A stretch of DNA of 47,006 nucleotides from Chloroflexota bacterium. Lineage in GTDB: Bacteria; Chloroflexota; Chloroflexia; Chloroflexales; Roseiflexaceae. Positions 2,018 to 46,131 of the stretch are shown one piece after another (position 1 is the first letter of the stretch; each line of letters starts with the position of its first letter). The DNA lies in the NCBI GenBank assembly GCA_013388755.1, contig JACAEQ010000071.1:1-47006 (forward strand), written 5' to 3'. A model generated the notes under the pieces. That model saw only the letters and a program-made list of their open reading frames with translations. It made no database searches and had not been told where the DNA came from. A program made the position numbers and the translations under genes.

Positions 2018-3148
2018 TCACGCATACGGGTCGACCGCGTCGCGCAGACCATCGCCCAGGAGGTAGAGACAGAGCGATGCGAGCACAATCGAGCCCAGCG
2101 GAATGAGTAACCAGGGATAGAGGGTAACGGACTTGATCTGCTGTGCATCCTGAAGGAGCACGCCCCAGCTGACGGCGGGTGGCAGCATTCCCAGGTTGAG
2201 GAAGCTCAGAGCCGTTTCGGCGGCAATCGCGCCGGGTACGGCGAAGGACGCCACAACAATGATATGGCTCAGCGCATTGGGAATCATATGCGTGGTAATG
2301 ACTCGCCAGTGCGATGCGCCAGCGGCAATCGCCGCCGCAGTATAGTCGGCATTGCGATAGCTGAGGACCTTGCCGCGCACCTCGCGTGAAAAGCCGGTCC
2401 AGGTAATCAGCGCGAGGATCATCGTAATCAACAGATACCGCTGCACGACCGGCATATTGACCGGCAGTGCCGCGGCGATCGCAACGAACAATGAGATAAA
2501 TGGGAAGGTCTGGATGAGCTCAATCACACGCTGAATGATATTGTCGATCCAGCCGCCGAAATAGCCTGATGCTGTACCGACAATCGAGCCGATCACCATG
2601 CTGATCAGGACACCGAAGAAACCGATTGTGAGCGAAACCTGCGCGCCTTTCACCACCCGCGAAAACACATCGCGCCCCTGGCGGTCGGCGCCCCAGAGGA
2701 ACACCTTGATCGAAGCATCGCCGGGCGACTCGACGCCAAACAGGTGCAGGTTACTCGGAATGAACCCCCAGAGCAGATACATACTACCGTTCACGAACCA
2801 GCGGATGGGATAGGTCGTATCTGGATCGGGTAGATAGATAATCTGAAAGTTTGCCGAGTCGACGACCTGTCTCATGCCCTGTATTGCAGGGCCGCCATTC
2901 ACCCAGACGATCGTGGAGGGCTGGGCGTACTGGTGGCTCGCATCAATCTCGTTCGGATCATATGGCGCGACAAAATCGGCGAAAATTGCCACAAGATACA
3001 ACACAATCAACACAGCCGCCCCGACGATCGAGAGCCGGTTTTTCTTAAAGCGGCGCCAGATCAGTTGACGTTGCGACAACTGGCCGACGTCCTCGGGCTT
3101 TCTGGCTTTACTTACCTGAGGCTGCGTGTCTTTTGCGATTGTCGCCAT
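2018..3148 (-). CDS. ABC importer permease, DppC/OppC type
   Basis: Inner-membrane permease of a family-5 (peptide/nickel/oligosaccharide) ABC importer, 376 residues. The N-terminal cytoplasmic stretch (about 35 residues) is followed by one membrane segment (SIVGAAVLIVLYLVAIFADF), an extended extracytoplasmic insert (about residues 60-155) and the conserved five-helix permease domain. The coupling loop around YTAAAIAAGASHWRVI is the EAA motif that contacts the ATPase. The insert is longer than in typical E. coli DppC. ATG at 3148 is preceded by GGGAAG. It lies 19 bases after the DppB-type gene, so they are co-transcribed. No ATPase gene is present in the visible operon; it may be shared or lie beyond the left edge. 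The substrate is inferred to be an oligosaccharide from the neighbouring mannosidase. Confidence 0.9.
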   Translation of the reverse strand: MATIAKDTQPQVSKARKPEDVGQLSQRQLIWRRFKKNRLSIVGAAVLIVLYLVAIFADFVAPYDPNEIDASHQYAQPSTIVWVNGGPAIQGMRQVVDSANFQIIYLPDPDTTYPIRWFVNGSMYLLWGFIPSNLHLFGVESPGDASIKVFLWGADRQGRDVFSRVVKGAQVSLTIGFFGVLISMVIGSIVGTASGYFGGWIDNIIQRVIELIQTFPFISLFVAIAAALPVNMPVVQRYLLITMILALITWTGFSREVRGKVLSYRNADYTAAAIAAGASHWRVITTHMIPNALSHIIVVASFAVPGAIAAETALSFLNLGMLPPAVSWGVLLQDAQQIKSVTLYPWLLIPLGSIVLASLCLYLLGDGLRDAVDPYA

Positions 3149-3167
3149 ATAGCTTCCCTACACAGAT

Positions 3168-4154
3168 TCACTCCAACCGCACCCGCGGATCGACCCATGC
3201 CAGCAGCAGATCGGCGATCAGATTGCCAAGCAGTAGCATAACGCACTGCATCATCAGAATTGTAATACCGAGATACATGTCGGTCGACTGCAGTGCACGT
3301 AAATAGAGCGCGCCAAGCGTCGGTAGATTGAGAATGATACCGGCGAGTGCATCGCCGACAACGATTGCGGGCAGCAGGTACCCGATGCTCATCACGAGGG
3401 GATGAACAGCGTTGCGTACCGCGTGCTTCCAGATCACGGTACTCTCCTGGAGCCCTTTGGCGCGCGCGGTCTGCACATACTGAGCATTAAGTACGTCAAG
3501 CAGGTTGGCGCGCATCACGCGTGTCAACCCCGCCGTGGCCGATGCACCCAGCACGATGACCGGGATCCAGAGATTGCTCAACAGGTTCGTGAATTTTGCA
3601 AAGCTCCAGGATGCATCAATATACTGCGGCGAGAAGAAGCCCAGTCCAACATCCTGGCGCAAAACCAGAGCAGCAAAGACCATCAGTATCAGCGCCAATG
3701 CAAAGTTAGGAATGGCAATGCCGAGAAACTGCACGAATGTAATGAGATAATCGGGAATGCCACCACGGTTCGTGGCAAGATAGACGCCGACCGGGATAGA
3801 GATCAGCCAGGCAAACAGCGCCGTGCCAAATGTCAGGCCAAATGTGATGGGCAGGCGTTGCGCGATGATACCAGCCACGGGCGTGTCTGTCTCAAACGAC
3901 GTGCCAAAATCGCCCTGAACCGTTCGTGAAACCCATTTCCAGTATTTGATATGGAGCGGATCATCAACGCCGTAACGCCGTTTCAGTGCCTCGATCTGGT
4001 CCTGTGGTACATTACCGCCCTGGGCGCGCAATTGATCTATCTTGATATCAACGATCGACCCCGGCGGCAATTCGATCAGAAAGAAACCGATGAATGACGC
4101 CAGGATCATGGTGATCACCATATAGACAACGCGCCGGGCAAGAAACGCAGCCAT
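3168..4154 (-). CDS. ABC importer permease, DppB/OppB type
   Basis: First permease of the same family-5 ABC importer, 328 residues. The N-terminus MAAFLARRVVYMVITMILAS is the typical first membrane helix of DppB/OppB proteins, followed by the periplasmic domain (GDFGTSFETDTPV region) and then the multi-helix permease core. The EAA-type coupling loop is at YVQTARAKGLQESTVIWKHAVRNA. The C-terminus LLLAWVDPRVRLE is the classic ending of this family. The start at 4154 has an AAAGG-type ribosome site. It pairs with the DppC-type gene 19 bases downstream and sits about 100 bases after the binding-protein gene, with a palindrome in that gap. Confidence 0.92.
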   Translation of the reverse strand: MAAFLARRVVYMVITMILASFIGFFLIELPPGSIVDIKIDQLRAQGGNVPQDQIEALKRRYGVDDPLHIKYWKWVSRTVQGDFGTSFETDTPVAGIIAQRLPITFGLTFGTALFAWLISIPVGVYLATNRGGIPDYLITFVQFLGIAIPNFALALILMVFAALVLRQDVGLGFFSPQYIDASWSFAKFTNLLSNLWIPVIVLGASATAGLTRVMRANLLDVLNAQYVQTARAKGLQESTVIWKHAVRNAVHPLVMSIGYLLPAIVVGDALAGIILNLPTLGALYLRALQSTDMYLGITILMMQCVMLLLGNLIADLLLAWVDPRVRLE

Positions 4155-38593: not shown

Positions 38594-39970
38594 TCAAGGA
38601 TGTGGCACGCGCAGCAGGGTATTGGGGCGCGGCGCGGTGATCGTTACCGTCGCGCCGTCGGGCCAGCGTACCTCGACCTGCTCGACCTGCGGCGTGCTGC
38701 CGAGGCCGAAGTGCGCCACCGGCTCCATCTGGCACAGGTAGCCACTGCCGGCATCAATGGCCCGCAACTGGCGCGCGCCGCCGGCGATCAGCGTGACGAC
38801 CGCGCCGCGCGCCGGGGCTCCCTGTGCCGTCAACGGCAGCACGCGCAGCCACGCGTTCTGGTTCGCCGCCGTGTGGAACAGGCTCAGTGGTTGCGTATCG
38901 GCCTCGCCGTGCGCGACCAGTAGCTCCAGCCGCCCGTCGCCATCGAAGTCGCCGACGGCCGCACCGGTGCCGAGGCCGCCCGGCTCGAGCGCGTCGCCCG
39001 GATCGCGCGCGACCCAGGAGTCGCCGTGGCGCGCAAACAGGCGATTCGGCTGACCGATGTTATTGAAAAAGATCTCCAGCGTGCCATCATTATCGAAGTC
39101 GGCGGCGATTACCGTGCGCACGCGCGACGGTTCGGCCATCTCGCGCGGCGCAGCATCCACGAACAGCCCGCCCCACTTCTGCAGGAAGAGGCGATGCGGC
39201 CCTTCCCAGTTGCCATAGACCAGGTCGAAGCGCCCGTCGCCATCGAAGTCGCCGGCGGCAACCCCGCGGCCATGCTCGTGGGGGTCGGGCAGGCCGGCGC
39301 GGCGCGCAATCTCCTCAAAGGCGCCATCGCCGCGGTTGGCGAACAGGAAGTTGGCGCCATTTTCATTCACGGTGAAAATATCCATGCGCGTCGTCACCAG
39401 CGGCAGCGCAACGACGCCGCGCCCGCCGGTGGTGAAGCTCAGCCCCGCGGCGCTGGCCATATCCTGCAATTCACCAAAGCGGTCGAGTTCATACAGGCGG
39501 AACGGCCCGCCATAGTTCGCCACGAAGAAACCGTAGCGCCCGGTACCCAGCCGGTCAACGACCGCAACCGAGCGTCCGGCCGTCAGGTTCAGCGCCTCCT
39601 CATTCTGCGGCAGTTCGAACAGGTCGATCCAGTCGCCGTCGCTGCGGGCAAACAGCCGGTCGCCAAAGCGCTTGCGCCCGGCAAACGTGTCGGTATTCAG
39701 TACATAGATCTCCTCGCGGCCATCGCCATCAAGGTCGCCGGCAGCCACGCCGATCGCCTGGCGGCGCGCATCGGCCAGCGTCGCGGGTGCGATGTCGTCG
39801 AATCCGGAGCCGTCCCAGCGCAGGACGCGGTTTGGCCCGTCAAAGCCGGCCACGAAGCACTCGAAGGCGCCATCGTTATCAACATCGGTAACGGCGACGC
39901 CATAGTGGAGGCGCGGCGGATTATGGCGAATCAGGCTGCTCTGATTGATAAACATGGGCGATGGCGTCAT
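38594..39970 (-). CDS. FG-GAP repeat protein with C-terminal ASPIC/UnbV domain
   Basis: Beta-propeller protein related to CRTAC1/ASPIC proteins, about 458 residues. Successive FG-GAP-type calcium-binding repeats read VTDVDNDGAFECFVAGFDG, AAGDLDGDGREEIYVLN, AAGDFDGDGRFDLVYGNWEG, AADFDNDGTLEIFFNN and VGDFDGDGRLELLVAHGE; the DxDxDG loops should each bind calcium. The last about 70 residues (NAWLRVLPLTAQGAPARGAV ... VEVRWPDGATVTI) form an ASPIC/UnbV domain. No signal peptide is evident from Met at 39970, unusual for a family that is normally secreted; the frame stays open to 40033 but gains no signal sequence. It lies upstream of the sugar importer on the same strand. Confidence 0.85.
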   Translation of the reverse strand: MTPSPMFINQSSLIRHNPPRLHYGVAVTDVDNDGAFECFVAGFDGPNRVLRWDGSGFDDIAPATLADARRQAIGVAAGDLDGDGREEIYVLNTDTFAGRKRFGDRLFARSDGDWIDLFELPQNEEALNLTAGRSVAVVDRLGTGRYGFFVANYGGPFRLYELDRFGELQDMASAAGLSFTTGGRGVVALPLVTTRMDIFTVNENGANFLFANRGDGAFEEIARRAGLPDPHEHGRGVAAGDFDGDGRFDLVYGNWEGPHRLFLQKWGGLFVDAAPREMAEPSRVRTVIAADFDNDGTLEIFFNNIGQPNRLFARHGDSWVARDPGDALEPGGLGTGAAVGDFDGDGRLELLVAHGEADTQPLSLFHTAANQNAWLRVLPLTAQGAPARGAVVTLIAGGARQLRAIDAGSGYLCQMEPVAHFGLGSTPQVEQVEVRWPDGATVTITAPRPNTLLRVPHP

Positions 39971-40286
39971 TGCATGTTCTGGATGGCGGATCGGGCGCGG
40001 CGCACAGGCGACCGAACCTCTGCGGCACCACATAGCGCATACCGCGCGCCTGCGAAAATAGTACCACGGAATACCACATCGTGCGCTGCCGCCTGCATGA
40101 GGAATCGCCCACCACGCCTCCAGGGAGAAACCCGGGTGTCAGGGCACCGTGCCACCCACCCCGCTGCGTACCACACAGGTCGCACGGTTCGACATCAGGC
40201 ACGCGCATGCACAGATGACAAAAATGACAAAAATGACATCTTGATTACAGCTCACGTTTTATGGCGTCCAGAAGGGTTCTATCGCA

Positions 40287-40365: not shown

Positions 40366-42861
40366 ATGGCGTTGCGTTTCCAGCAAAAGCTGATCGTTCC
40401 GTCTGCCGCGCGACCGCTGATTGCGCGGCCACAATTGCTGGCCCAGCTCGACCATGCGATTCGCAGTAAGCGTGTCATTGCGCTGTCGGCGCCGGCCGGC
40501 TGGGGCAAAACGACGGCGCTGGCCCAGTGGGTCGAGCAGAGCGGTATGCCGACCGGCTGGTACACCCTCGACAGCGCCGACCGCGATCCACAGTTATTTC
40601 TCGACTACCTGTTGCATAGCGTGGCAGATTACGTTCCTGCCGCCGGGGAGATCGTCGCGCGCCTGGCGGATACGACTCCCCAGGGGCTGGCGGATGTGAC
40701 GCAGCAGGTGGCGCTGGCGTTCGCCGACGCACCGAAGCATTTTGCCCTGGTTCTCGACGATTTCCACGTGCTCGACGACGACCAGGCGCAGCCGATACCC
40801 GGCGCGTCGCTGGTGCTCGCCTTACTGGCTTCGATTGCCGAGTATGCCACAAAATGCCACCTGGTGTTTGCGTCGCGCACCCTCCCGGCGCTCCACGGCC
40901 TGGTGCGCATGGTGGCCCAGCAGCGCGCCGCGGTCTTCGACTATAGCGCGTTACAGTTCAGCCGTGCCGAGACGCAACGGCTCGCCGGTATGACCGCCGG
41001 CATGACCCTGTCCGACGAAGCGGCCGAGCAACTCACCGCCTCACTGGGCGGCTGGGTCACCGGGATCGTACTCTCGCTCGACCAGAGTTCCGTTGACGGC
41101 GCCGGCTGGCAGAGCGGCGGCAACCCCGCCGGTGAGCGACCGGCGACGGCCACGCAGCGCGAGGCCTTCGTCGAGACGGATACCGGCCAGGTGTATGCCT
41201 ACTTTGCCGAGCAGATCCTCGCACCGTTACCGCCTGACCTGCAGCGCTTCCTTGAAGACACCAGCGTGCTGGAGGATCTATCGCCGCGCCGTTGCGACCT
41301 GTTGCGCGGCAGCGATGACTCGGCCGAATACCTGGACGATGTCAGGCGACGCGGGCTGTTCGTCTCCAGCCGTGCCGGCTGGTTGTCGTACCACAGCCTG
41401 TTCCGCGACTACCTGCGCTCGCGCCTGGCGCGCGACTCGCAGCGCCGCCGGATGTTGCTGCGCGCCGCTGGCGACCTGTACGCCACCGAGGAAGAGGTAG
41501 AGCGCGCACTCGACTGCTACCTCGCCGCCGGGGCCGACCAGCACGCGATCGACCTGCTGCGCGCGGCGGTGCCGCGGTTGCGCCAGCGTTCGCGCCAGAC
41601 GACGTTGCTCGCATGTTTTGAACGTCTCCAGCGACTGGACACCGCTGGCGAGTGGGCCAGGGGAGGGGAGACAGCGCTCCTGCCCGGGCGCACCTCGCGC
41701 CTGTTGCCGCTGCCACCTGACCTGTTACTGGCCGAAGCGCGAGTCTACAGTGACCTGGCACTCTGGGAACGCGCCTACCTCGCGTTGCAACTCGCCGAGA
41801 CCGTCGGCGACGCCCTGGTGCGGGCCGAGGCGCGGATCCTCCACGCCGACATTCTCGTGCTGCAGGGAGAGTATGCGCGCGCGCAGGCAACGCTCGAGGA
41901 GATTGACCCGGAGCAACTGATCGAACGATTGCGCCTTGCCTACCACGTCACCGCCGGGCGCACCTATATCGTCTCCGGCGAGATTGCCGCCGCGGTGAAC
42001 GAACTCGAACGCGCCCACACACTCGCGCCGGCGCTCAGCGACGTCGCCGAGGACCCCAGTTCCCTTGCCGACATCTACGATAACCTCGGGTGGGCCTATG
42101 CCACACAGGGAGATCGCCAGGCCGCCATCCGCTACCTGAAGCGCGCCGATGCCTGCTGGCAGGCATCGGGCAATCACGGGCGGCGGGCACTGACCCTGAA
42201 CAACCTGGGCATGATGGCCATGGAAGAGGGCCGGTTCGCCGAAGCGCGCGCCGCCTTCGACGACGGCCTGGCGATCGCGCGCCAGACCGGGCGTCGCCGT
42301 GATGAGACCGCACTGCGTTGCAGCCTGGCCGAACTCGACATGCTCGAAGGCGACCTTGAGCAGGCGGTGGCGCGCTACACCGAAGCGCATGCGCTCGCGG
42401 TGCGTCTGGATGTCGCCAGCAGTATCGAAGCGGCAGCCGCGGGCGCGCTCTGGGGCGCGGTGCTTGCCGGCGATCTGGCGCTGGCGCAGGCCTGGCACGA
42501 TGTCGCTGCGGCGATCGTCGCCCCGGCACAGCCGGAAGTACGGGGCCGGCTGGCGCTGGCGCGCGCCATGCTGGCGCTGCTACAGCCGCGGCCCGATCCA
42601 GGGTACCTTGGCGGGCTGGCAGCGGAAGCGACGGCCCGCGAGGCATACCTGAGCGAGTCGGAGCGCGCCTATGCCGCACTGTTGCGTGCCGAACTGGTCT
42701 TCGCCCGCGCCGGCTGGCACCGCGCCGCCGCGGAGTGGGACACCTTCGCCGCGCGCGCCGCCTCCCTGCCCGAGTCGCTGATACTACGGTTCGTCGCACC
42801 GCACCGCAAGCTCTTCGAAGCCGCCGCGCCCCATGCGCCGCTCGCCAGCCGCGTGCTCTAG
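40366..42861 (+). CDS. MalT-like STAND ATPase/TPR protein, ended by an in-frame TAG
   Basis: N-terminal 831 residues of a large ATP-dependent regulator. Walker A APAGWGKTTA lies at 42-51 and Walker B FALVLDDFHVLDDD near 126. The MalT-type sensor region (HLVFASRTLPALHGLVRMVA; GGWVTGIVLSL) follows, then a winged-helix-like part near 300-345 and about 450 residues of TPR helices. MalT/SARP proteins of this layout carry a DNA-binding domain at the C-terminus; here the frame stops at TAG (42859-42861). The same frame then continues without any other stop through a complete SARP-type domain to 43572. As written, the product would lack a DNA-binding domain. A promoter-like sequence lies at 40287. 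Confidence 0.87.
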   Translation: MALRFQQKLIVPSAARPLIARPQLLAQLDHAIRSKRVIALSAPAGWGKTTALAQWVEQSGMPTGWYTLDSADRDPQLFLDYLLHSVADYVPAAGEIVARLADTTPQGLADVTQQVALAFADAPKHFALVLDDFHVLDDDQAQPIPGASLVLALLASIAEYATKCHLVFASRTLPALHGLVRMVAQQRAAVFDYSALQFSRAETQRLAGMTAGMTLSDEAAEQLTASLGGWVTGIVLSLDQSSVDGAGWQSGGNPAGERPATATQREAFVETDTGQVYAYFAEQILAPLPPDLQRFLEDTSVLEDLSPRRCDLLRGSDDSAEYLDDVRRRGLFVSSRAGWLSYHSLFRDYLRSRLARDSQRRRMLLRAAGDLYATEEEVERALDCYLAAGADQHAIDLLRAAVPRLRQRSRQTTLLACFERLQRLDTAGEWARGGETALLPGRTSRLLPLPPDLLLAEARVYSDLALWERAYLALQLAETVGDALVRAEARILHADILVLQGEYARAQATLEEIDPEQLIERLRLAYHVTAGRTYIVSGEIAAAVNELERAHTLAPALSDVAEDPSSLADIYDNLGWAYATQGDRQAAIRYLKRADACWQASGNHGRRALTLNNLGMMAMEEGRFAEARAAFDDGLAIARQTGRRRDETALRCSLAELDMLEGDLEQAVARYTEAHALAVRLDVASSIEAAAAGALWGAVLAGDLALAQAWHDVAAAIVAPAQPEVRGRLALARAMLALLQPRPDPGYLGGLAAEATAREAYLSESERAYAALLRAELVFARAGWHRAAAEWDTFAARAASLPESLILRFVAPHRKLFEAAAPHAPLASRVL

Positions 42862-43572
42862 GCACTCCGCCGCCCGGCGCCCAGCCGCTGGCGCATCACC
42901 GCGCTGGGCGGTTTCGAATGCCTGGTTGACGGCAAGCCGGTCGATCTCTCCCAATTGCACCGCGCGCTCCTGGTGCGGCTGCTCGATGCCGGCCCGCAGG
43001 GGCTGGCGGTCGAGCGGTTGTGGGAAGCAGTATGGGGCGACGACGAAATCTCCATGCCGGCGTTGCACCAGGCGCTGCGCCGGCTGCGCGTACAGACCGG
43101 CCTGGCGGCGTCGGCGCGTGAAGGATCGGTCGCGATCCGTTCCGGCTGGCAGGGGATCGAGTATGACGTGCGCGAACTGGAGCGCGCGCTGGAAACGCCG
43201 ACCCAGCGCGATTCGGTGCAGCGCGCTGCAGCGCTCTACCGCGGCGAGTTCCTCCCCGGCGCGCCACTGAGCGCCGCGCTGTGGGTCGACAGCCGGCGGG
43301 CGCATCTGCAACAGCGCTACCTTGACGCGCTCGAACAATACGCGCGCGCCGTCGAGCGCGAGTCGCCGCAGCAGGCCATCCACTACTACCAGCAGGTCCT
43401 GCAGATCGACGGCTGCCGCGAACACACGGCGGCGCAACTCATGCGCCTGGCGGCACGCTACGGCAACCGCACCCTGGTGACCGCCACCTTCGAACACCTC
43501 AAAGGCGCGCTGCGCGCCCTCGGCGCAACCCCTGAACCGGCGACGGCCGCGTTGTACCAGCAGTTGACGTAA
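42862..43572 (+). pseudogene. SARP-type wHTH/BTAD domain separated from its gene by one TAG
   Basis: This is in the same reading frame as the MalT-like gene, directly after its TAG, with 236 open codons. The first about 100 residues form an OmpR-like winged helix (RWRITALGGFECLVDGKPVD; LHRALLVRLLDAGPQGLAVE; LWEAVWGDDEISMPALHQAL). The rest is the transcriptional activator domain (AAALYRGEFLPGAPLSAALW; DALEQYARAVERESPQQAIH), ending AALYQQLT. No ATG/GTG start with a ribosome site lies upstream of the winged helix; the first in-frame TTG (42955) would remove its first strands. So it is either the detached end of a nonsense-mutated gene or is expressed by readthrough. The sequence shows no decay apart from the stop. 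Confidence 0.8.
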
Positions 43573-43700: not shown

Positions 43701-43931
43701 CGCAACGTGATGAAGGCGGGATGCCCTCGCTCCCAGGAACAGTGTGCACACGCTCCACGCGGGGAGCTGTTCTCGTGGCGCAGGGCAGTGGGCGCCGGCG
43801 CCCCGGAGCCGTTCTTACCGTGCCGTTACACGCACAGGCGTAGTAATTGAACGGTAGTTCATTCCTTCCGAAAAGCGACACATGGTGGAATGCTATAGTC
43901 CAGCTTGACCACGAATGAGCGAGTGAGAGCT

Positions 43932-44438
43932 ATGGAACCACGCTGGTACGTCTTGCGCAGCAAGCCGCACAAGGAAGACATCCTTTACCGGCACGCGACG
44001 GCGCAGGGATACAGACTCTTCTATCCACGCATCCCTGTCCAACGGGTGAACCCTCGCGCGCGACCGGTGGTTCCCTACTTCCCGGGCTACATGTTCGTCC
44101 ATGTTGCGCTCGCCGCGATCGGCGGTGCCACCTTCGCATACATGCCGAACTCCCTGGGCCTGGTTAACTTCGATGGCGTGCCGGCCGCGATTGACGATGC
44201 GATCGTGAATGCGATTGATGGGCGGGTTGCAATGATCGTCGCCGCTGGCGGCGAGACGTTCCTCGGGCTCAACGCCGGCGACCCGGTTGTGATCACTGAT
44301 GGGCCGCTGGCCGGCTACGAGGGCATCTTCGATACCCGACTCCGTGGCAGCGATCGCGTGCGCGTGCTGCTGACGATGCTGAACGACCAGACGGTGCGGG
44401 CGGAGTTGCACGCCGGGCAGATCCGGCGCGCGGCGTAA
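43932..44438 (+). CDS. NusG-family transcription antitermination paralogue (RfaH/LoaP-like)
   Basis: Specialised NusG paralogue, 168 residues. The NGN domain is recognisable: RWYVLRSKPHKEDILYRHAT at the N-terminus, PRIPVQRVNPRARPVVPYFP followed by GYMFVHV. A KOW-type C-terminal domain follows (LNAGDPVVITDGPLAGYEGI, then VLLTMLNDQTVRAELHAGQI). General NusG genes usually sit with secE and ribosomal proteins; this one precedes a polysaccharide chain-length/kinase gene, the position typical of RfaH/LoaP-type factors that help RNA polymerase through long polysaccharide operons. Start at 43932 with a GTGAGAG site; an upstream ATG at 43905 is possible. The operon-specific role is inferred from position. 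Confidence 0.85.
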   Translation: MEPRWYVLRSKPHKEDILYRHATAQGYRLFYPRIPVQRVNPRARPVVPYFPGYMFVHVALAAIGGATFAYMPNSLGLVNFDGVPAAIDDAIVNAIDGRVAMIVAAGGETFLGLNAGDPVVITDGPLAGYEGIFDTRLRGSDRVRVLLTMLNDQTVRAELHAGQIRRAA

Positions 44439-44511
44439 TGTGCCCGGCGCTGGAGCACCGGTGTCCGGGTGACTGATGGACGGCGCGGATTGGCGTCACG
44501 GTGCACGCACC

Positions 44512-44607
44512 GGCGCTCGACATGGCAATGGCCTGTCGTAATGGCGGAGCGTGCCCGGAGTGGCGCTCGACATGGCGATGGCCTGTCGTAATGGCGGAGC
44601 GTGCCCG
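44512..44607 (+). repeat. 46-bp tandem duplication
   Basis: Two copies of a 46-base unit beginning GGCGCTCGACATGGC (44512-44557 and 44562-44607) are separated by four bases and differ at one position. They lie between the NusG-like gene and the Wzz/kinase gene and contain no gene. The duplication extends the kinase frame upstream as an artefact (44551 start), one reason to prefer the start at 44626. Confidence 0.8.
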
Positions 44608-44625
44608 CCGGCAGATGGAAACGAC

Positions 44626-46131
44626 ATGGTGCACTATCTCTCGATTGCAAAGCGCTGGTGGTGGTTAATCGTCATCTTGACAGTTCTGGGAGCCGCCGCC
44701 GGCTATGTGCTGAGCCAGCGCCAGATGCGGATGTACCAGGCCGAAATGACCCTGCTGGTTGTCGCTAGCGTGCCCAGCCCGGAGATCGCCGAACGCCTGA
44801 TCCCCGATTCGCGCAACTCGCTGGTGAAGACATATCGAGAACTGCTCCTCAAGCGACCCGTGCTGGAGCAGGTGATTGATGAACTCGGACTCAAGACGAC
44901 TCCTGAGAAGTTGATGGAGCGCCTGGCGATCAGCGATGTACGCGACACGCAGCTCCTCGTTTTGAGCGCCCAGGACCCTGACCCACGGCAGGCCGCTGGT
45001 ATCGCCAATGCGATTGTGGCGGCCTTCAACCAGCAGGCGGGCGCGCTGCTGGCCAACCCGTACGCCGCCGGCCGCAGCGGGCTGAGCGTCGTCGAGGCCG
45101 CAACCCCGCCTCTCGAACCGATCGGGCCGGGGCCGGTACGCACCATCGGGATTGCGGCGCTGGTCGGCCTGCTGCTCGCGGCAGGTTTCATCTTCGCCGT
45201 CGAGTATTTCGACACGCGGATCCGGCTCGAGGCGGACGTGGTGCAACTGACGGGTCTGCCGACGATTGTCGAGATTGGCTTTCTGGAGGGGCGCAAACCG
45301 CACGAGCGGATGGTCACGCGTCTCGCGCCTGCCTCGCGCGCCGCCGAAGTCTACCGCATGGTCCGGCTGATGCTGGAGACCGGCGCTGGCGAGCGGCCAA
45401 TCCGCACGCTGATCGTCACCAGCGCGGATGCAGGCGAGGGAAAGAGCCTGACCGCCGCCAACCTCGCCGTCGCTCTGGCCCAGACCGGCCTGCGCACCAT
45501 CCTGATTGACGCCAACCTGCGCCGGCCAATGGTCCACGAGCTGTTCCAGCAGCAGAATGTGCGTGGTGTGACGACGGCGATGGGCTCGGATGGTCTGGCG
45601 ACCGCCTATGAGCACACGGTGGAGAGTGATGTGGAGAATCTCCGGCTGCTATTGAGCGGACCGCAGCCAGTGCCGGGCCAGCTCAATGCTGCACGCCTGC
45701 TCACCCCGAGCCGCGTACTGGTGCTGATCGACCAGTTGAAGGCGCATGCTGATGTGCTCGTATTCGATAGCCCGCCGGTGCTTGAAGTGATCGAGACGAC
45801 GCTGCTGGCGCGTTCGTGCGACGCCTCGCTCGTTGTGGTAGAGGCGGGGCATACCCGTGCCGATGAGTTGCTGCGGGCGCGCGAGGCCCTGGCCCGCTCG
45901 CGCGTTGACGTACTGGGGGTTGTGTTGAACCAGGCGGAACGCCCGGCAGTCGGGCTACTTAACGCCCCCGAGCAGGAGCAGCGACTGCTCGCAGCGCCCG
46001 CGAACCACGAGCGCCACCCGGCCCTGTCACCCAACGGCGAACATCCACAACTGGCGGCGCTGCAGATGGGAGGGTCCAGCGAGAAGAACAGTGTGTCCGG
46101 CAGCAGTGATCGCCGGCGCAACGTCGCCTGA
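44626..46131 (+). CDS. Polysaccharide co-polymerase with BY-kinase-like ATPase domain (Wzz/CpsD fusion type)
   Basis: Inner-membrane protein of 501 residues for exopolysaccharide chain-length control or export. Two membrane helices (about 10-28 and 173-195) bracket a Wzz-type extracytoplasmic domain, with a Pro/Gly-rich motif before the second helix (TPPLEPIGPGP). The cytoplasmic part is a BY-kinase/ParA-like ATPase: Walker A SADAGEGKSLTAANLA (about 266), Walker A' ILIDANLRRP (about 292) and Walker B DVLVFDSPPV (about 378). BY-kinases end in a Tyr-rich tail that is phosphorylated; this C-terminus (about 440-501) has no tyrosine. Start at 44626 (MVHYLSIAKRWWW); upstream in-frame starts fall in a tandem repeat. 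Confidence 0.9.
   Translation: MVHYLSIAKRWWWLIVILTVLGAAAGYVLSQRQMRMYQAEMTLLVVASVPSPEIAERLIPDSRNSLVKTYRELLLKRPVLEQVIDELGLKTTPEKLMERLAISDVRDTQLLVLSAQDPDPRQAAGIANAIVAAFNQQAGALLANPYAAGRSGLSVVEAATPPLEPIGPGPVRTIGIAALVGLLLAAGFIFAVEYFDTRIRLEADVVQLTGLPTIVEIGFLEGRKPHERMVTRLAPASRAAEVYRMVRLMLETGAGERPIRTLIVTSADAGEGKSLTAANLAVALAQTGLRTILIDANLRRPMVHELFQQQNVRGVTTAMGSDGLATAYEHTVESDVENLRLLLSGPQPVPGQLNAARLLTPSRVLVLIDQLKAHADVLVFDSPPVLEVIETTLLARSCDASLVVVEAGHTRADELLRAREALARSRVDVLGVVLNQAERPAVGLLNAPEQEQRLLAAPANHERHPALSPNGEHPQLAALQMGGSSEKNSVSGSSDRRRNVA

Follow-up and report, generated by a model that had tools for sequence, protein, structure and literature searches.

What does a single in-frame stop codon mean when the coding sequence on both sides of it is undecayed? 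The question is raised by a large regulator gene in the window analyzed here, a 47,006-nucleotide stretch that is an entire contig (C9) of the 5.08-Mb, 145-contig draft assembly of a Chloroflexota bacterium of the family Roseiflexaceae. The original prediction reported a lone TAG parting frames of 831 and 236 codons, and offered a recent nonsense mutation, a sequencing error, or regulated readthrough in explanation. Its coordinates proved exact and the two frames are indeed the same one; read through the TAG, that frame runs for 1068 positions with a single stop. The features of the locus are as follows:

38594–40033, minus strand: divergent FG-GAP/ASPIC-UnbV gene, a syntenic anchor common to the window and Roseiflexus
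40366–42858, plus strand: ATPase and TPR part, starting at ATG 40366; 831 codons, with the Walker A motif APAGWGKTT; now the whole predicted product
42859–42861, plus strand: in-frame TAG, lying within the interdomain linker and found in the window genome alone among its relatives
42862–43572, plus strand: winged-helix and BTAD part, 236 codons (42862–43569) in the same frame, followed by TAA at 43570–43572

A MalT-like regulator interrupted in its linker

The assignment to a MalT/SARP type was supported by the domain content of the two parts. Pfam TPR families match the 831-codon part above cut-off, while AAA_16 and TPR_MalT match it below cut-off. The NCBIfam MalT model likewise matches residues 7–423 below its cut-off, and the N-terminal ATPase of the regulator matches that of Escherichia coli MalT (PDB 8bob) over residues 8–392. 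The gene therefore has the architecture of a MalT-like STAND protein, in which a TPR region comes after a MalT-type ATPase, with the MalT and AAA_16 models falling below their curated cut-offs and TPR above. In the 236-codon part, BTAD was found above cut-off (E 2.6e-12) and Trans_reg_C below it (E 1.4e-4), giving the winged helix followed by BTAD that is also seen in SARP regulators such as AfsR and the small SARPs.

The DNA-binding domain of MalT itself is a LuxR-type HTH, whereas the Pfam search found no such domain at the C-terminus of this regulator, which ends instead in the winged helix and BTAD. These two domains come last, after the ATPase and TPR; the domain order of AfsR is the reverse, with the winged helix and BTAD placed ahead of the ATPase/TPR region. 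The window genome contains no other close copy of the gene, and a search of the literature on Roseiflexus and MalT pseudogenes returned nothing relevant.

One way to account for the arrangement is a functional split: the truncated ATPase/TPR protein would work, and so would a winged-helix/BTAD protein resembling a small SARP and translated from a start of its own. The break does coincide with a domain boundary, small SARPs are examples of winged-helix/BTAD regulators of similar size that stand alone, and in one related genome (G010) an IS3-type integrase runs in frame, at the linker, into the C-terminal part. The linker comprises about 25 of the 1068 codons and would be struck by a random hit only about 2% of the time, a placement that counts against a nonsense mutation and that a split would likewise predict. 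Against a split stands the absence of a usable start. As had been predicted, the downstream part lacks one ahead of the winged helix: the first in-frame ATG, GTG or TTG past the TAG is TTG 42955, 31 codons on and already within that domain, and neither of the two ATGs close by, at 42833 and 42918, is in frame. We regard a split of this kind as very improbable.

The junction in related genomes

Among 40 related genomes, full-length and uninterrupted orthologues occur in four Roseiflexus-genus genomes (L006/L035 of strain SKYG45, L007, L008/L037, and L009/L036), each 73–74% identical to the regulator end to end. A contig scan recovered three orthologues, all already among these four. They share the length, the domain order and the upstream FG-GAP neighbor of the interrupted gene. 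They differ in having sense codons (GAC, ACA, GCG, and GCG) in the TAG column, which lies in a linker that is poorly conserved and variable in length. They also differ in carrying an alpha/beta hydrolase gene between the regulator and the FG-GAP gene; that hydrolase is absent from the window genome. It persists in the sister genomes G009 and G012 despite the loss of the regulator there (see below), which argues against any simple link between the two genes. The FG-GAP gene is present in all six Roseiflexus-genus genomes and adjoins the regulator or its remnant, so the locus is orthologous.

The search extended to 158 genomes of the class, where no internal stop was found in more distant relatives, and none of the 16 distinct relatives that could be aligned at the junction carries a stop there; all are open through it. 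One of these, the G010 locus (L011), is uninformative on the natural junction because its frame upstream of the linker comes from the inserted transposase. Whether relatives keep the TAG had been proposed as a check, and the answer goes against readthrough. Since the TAG occurs in this lineage alone, the only genome of its genus, conserved regulated readthrough was rejected, and an evolved two-product gene is not supported. Of the three options first offered, a nonsense mutation and a sequencing error fit the comparison, while regulated readthrough does not, given the sense codons of the relatives.

The prediction that both halves are undecayed also held up. Identity to the orthologues is 83–86% in the C-terminal part versus 70–71% in the N-terminal part, and the same inequality is seen among the orthologues themselves. 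An in-frame match of this level to four orthologue C-termini shows that the 236 codons are no chance open frame. On the window branch, nonsynonymous change in the C-terminal part was 0.063, against 0.071 expected from the N-terminal part; the C-to-N ratio of dN was 0.88 of that among Roseiflexus (bootstrap 95% interval 0.50–1.44), and the 95% upper bound on any excess in the C-terminal part was about 0.026. Unconstrained evolution could thus only have occupied about the last 3% of the branch, an estimate tied to a branch dS of 0.9 that is rough and saturated. A long-standing split with decay was rejected on the same lack of acceleration in the downstream half. Either the stop arose very recently, then, or it is not real, or the downstream part continues to be made.

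The first of these readings is the one we prefer. It is probable that a dispensable regulator recently acquired the TAG by nonsense mutation, leaving an incipient pseudogene of an ordinary kind, with the undecayed state of both halves as a point against it. The ancestral gene would have encoded the full-length regulator (ATPase, TPR, winged helix, and BTAD), as in Roseiflexus, and in the window lineage one of the codons of the poorly conserved linker would recently have mutated to TAG. Translation would then stop after residue 831 and yield a sensor/ATPase protein without the DNA-binding end, and the gene would have only just begun to turn into a pseudogene. Three elements of this account are inferred: the reality of the base, efficient termination at it, and the inability of the shortened protein to do its original job.

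Base error, termination and readthrough

The main rival to a nonsense mutation, itself unlikely, is a single-base consensus or assembly error in a gene that is intact in the living cell. Such an error would explain two undecayed halves, and the fragmented draft of 145 contigs is the kind of assembly in which it might occur. Nevertheless, no other coding frame broken by a lone stop was accepted in the 707 kb that were scanned (14% of the window genome), which argues against a high error rate while still allowing for one wrong base. The scan screened codon usage, and genes that are short or unusual would escape it. Its initial version was too loose, with many shadow-frame matches, and was superseded by a hexamer screen with frame competition. 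The remaining candidates, assessed by eye apart from L112, were separate genes or neighboring genes that start near the stop. L112, at 11475, was rejected as a split gene: its aldehyde ferredoxin oxidoreductase is complete, and the DUF1952 frame that comes after it is a separate one. The independent losses of the regulator in sister genomes, described below, also weigh against an error, as they make a real mutation plausible.

If the base is real, the TAG should terminate translation. In the same 707 kb, TAG ends 93 of 334 long ORFs (TGA 172, TAA 69), and no CUA anticodon was found among the 45 tRNAs of the window genome. On these grounds, reassignment of TAG or a changed code was rejected.

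Newly evolved readthrough is a separate matter. In this case, the TAG would be fixed in the species, with most ribosomes stopping and a few continuing to give both an ATPase-only and a full-length form. The intact coding constraint downstream is consistent with this, and the literature describes in-frame stops as widespread among bacterial genes and often under constraint, with readthrough as the interpretation (PMC7918605). The regulator resembles those genes in having a single in-frame stop with coding constraint on both sides; it differs in that its TAG, known from one genome in the genus, has no sign of upkeep across strains or of readthrough. On account of that report the idea is kept, as an improbable one. 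Apart from the stop being shared with no relative, the common use of TAG as a terminator and the CUA tRNA that was not found speak against it, as does the predicted RNA folding, which was not unusual relative to shuffled sequence either after the stop (z −0.73) or around it with the upstream flank included (z −1.31). There is a similarly slim chance that the TAG is both fixed and used, such that efficient termination would give the ATPase/TPR protein, with the DNA-binding part coming from occasional readthrough or from a hidden start, making a newly evolved two-product regulator.

Loss of the regulator elsewhere in Roseiflexaceae

The history of the gene in sister genomes bears directly on the preferred reading of a nonsense mutation. 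At the syntenic place in G012, a 100% complete genome of the same Roseiflexus genus, only fragments corresponding to about residues 13–110 and 158–273 are left (L038:7356–7978); their frames differ, and a large deletion comes after them. In G009, the syntenic place holds only scraps of about residues 6–69 and 376–399 (L052, reverse strand, about 2974–3228). With the regulator reduced to remnants at the same place in two Roseiflexus genomes, the gene is dispensable and repeatedly lost, and the differing deletion endpoints suggest that the two losses were separate events.

In G010, the winged-helix/BTAD part fused to the integrase (rve, HTH_21) lies at L011:616–2220 (G010:C1041), and this is either a gene-breaking insertion or a chimeric assembly. 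The regulator has been broken or lost several times in Roseiflexaceae.

Downstream gene order differs among the genomes. In G015, two ABC-transporter genes come after the regulator, with DUF5317 and histidine-kinase genes after those. The latter pair often follows the regulator (L035:4513–10316; G010:C283:1369–4764; G013:C269:4006–6685; L114:2665–4895), is also lost in G012 and G009, and is kept or lost along with the regulator across genomes; these genes may form a regulatory set. The idea that the regulator became useless through loss of these neighbors was rejected, as the DUF5317/histidine-kinase block is intact in the window genome, on a separate contig (C122). Immediately after the regulator, the window (43905–46131) carries instead a NusG-domain gene of the specialized antiterminator type and a Wzz/tyrosine-kinase-like gene, which suggests that an exopolysaccharide locus was moved beside the regulator by a rearrangement in the window lineage.

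The importance of the finding is limited: a large regulator has apparently been caught at the start of gene loss, and two other Roseiflexaceae genomes have lost the gene from the corresponding locus. Should the TAG instead turn out to be fixed and read through, the gene would offer a regulatory stop codon of new origin, along with uninterrupted relatives to compare it with.
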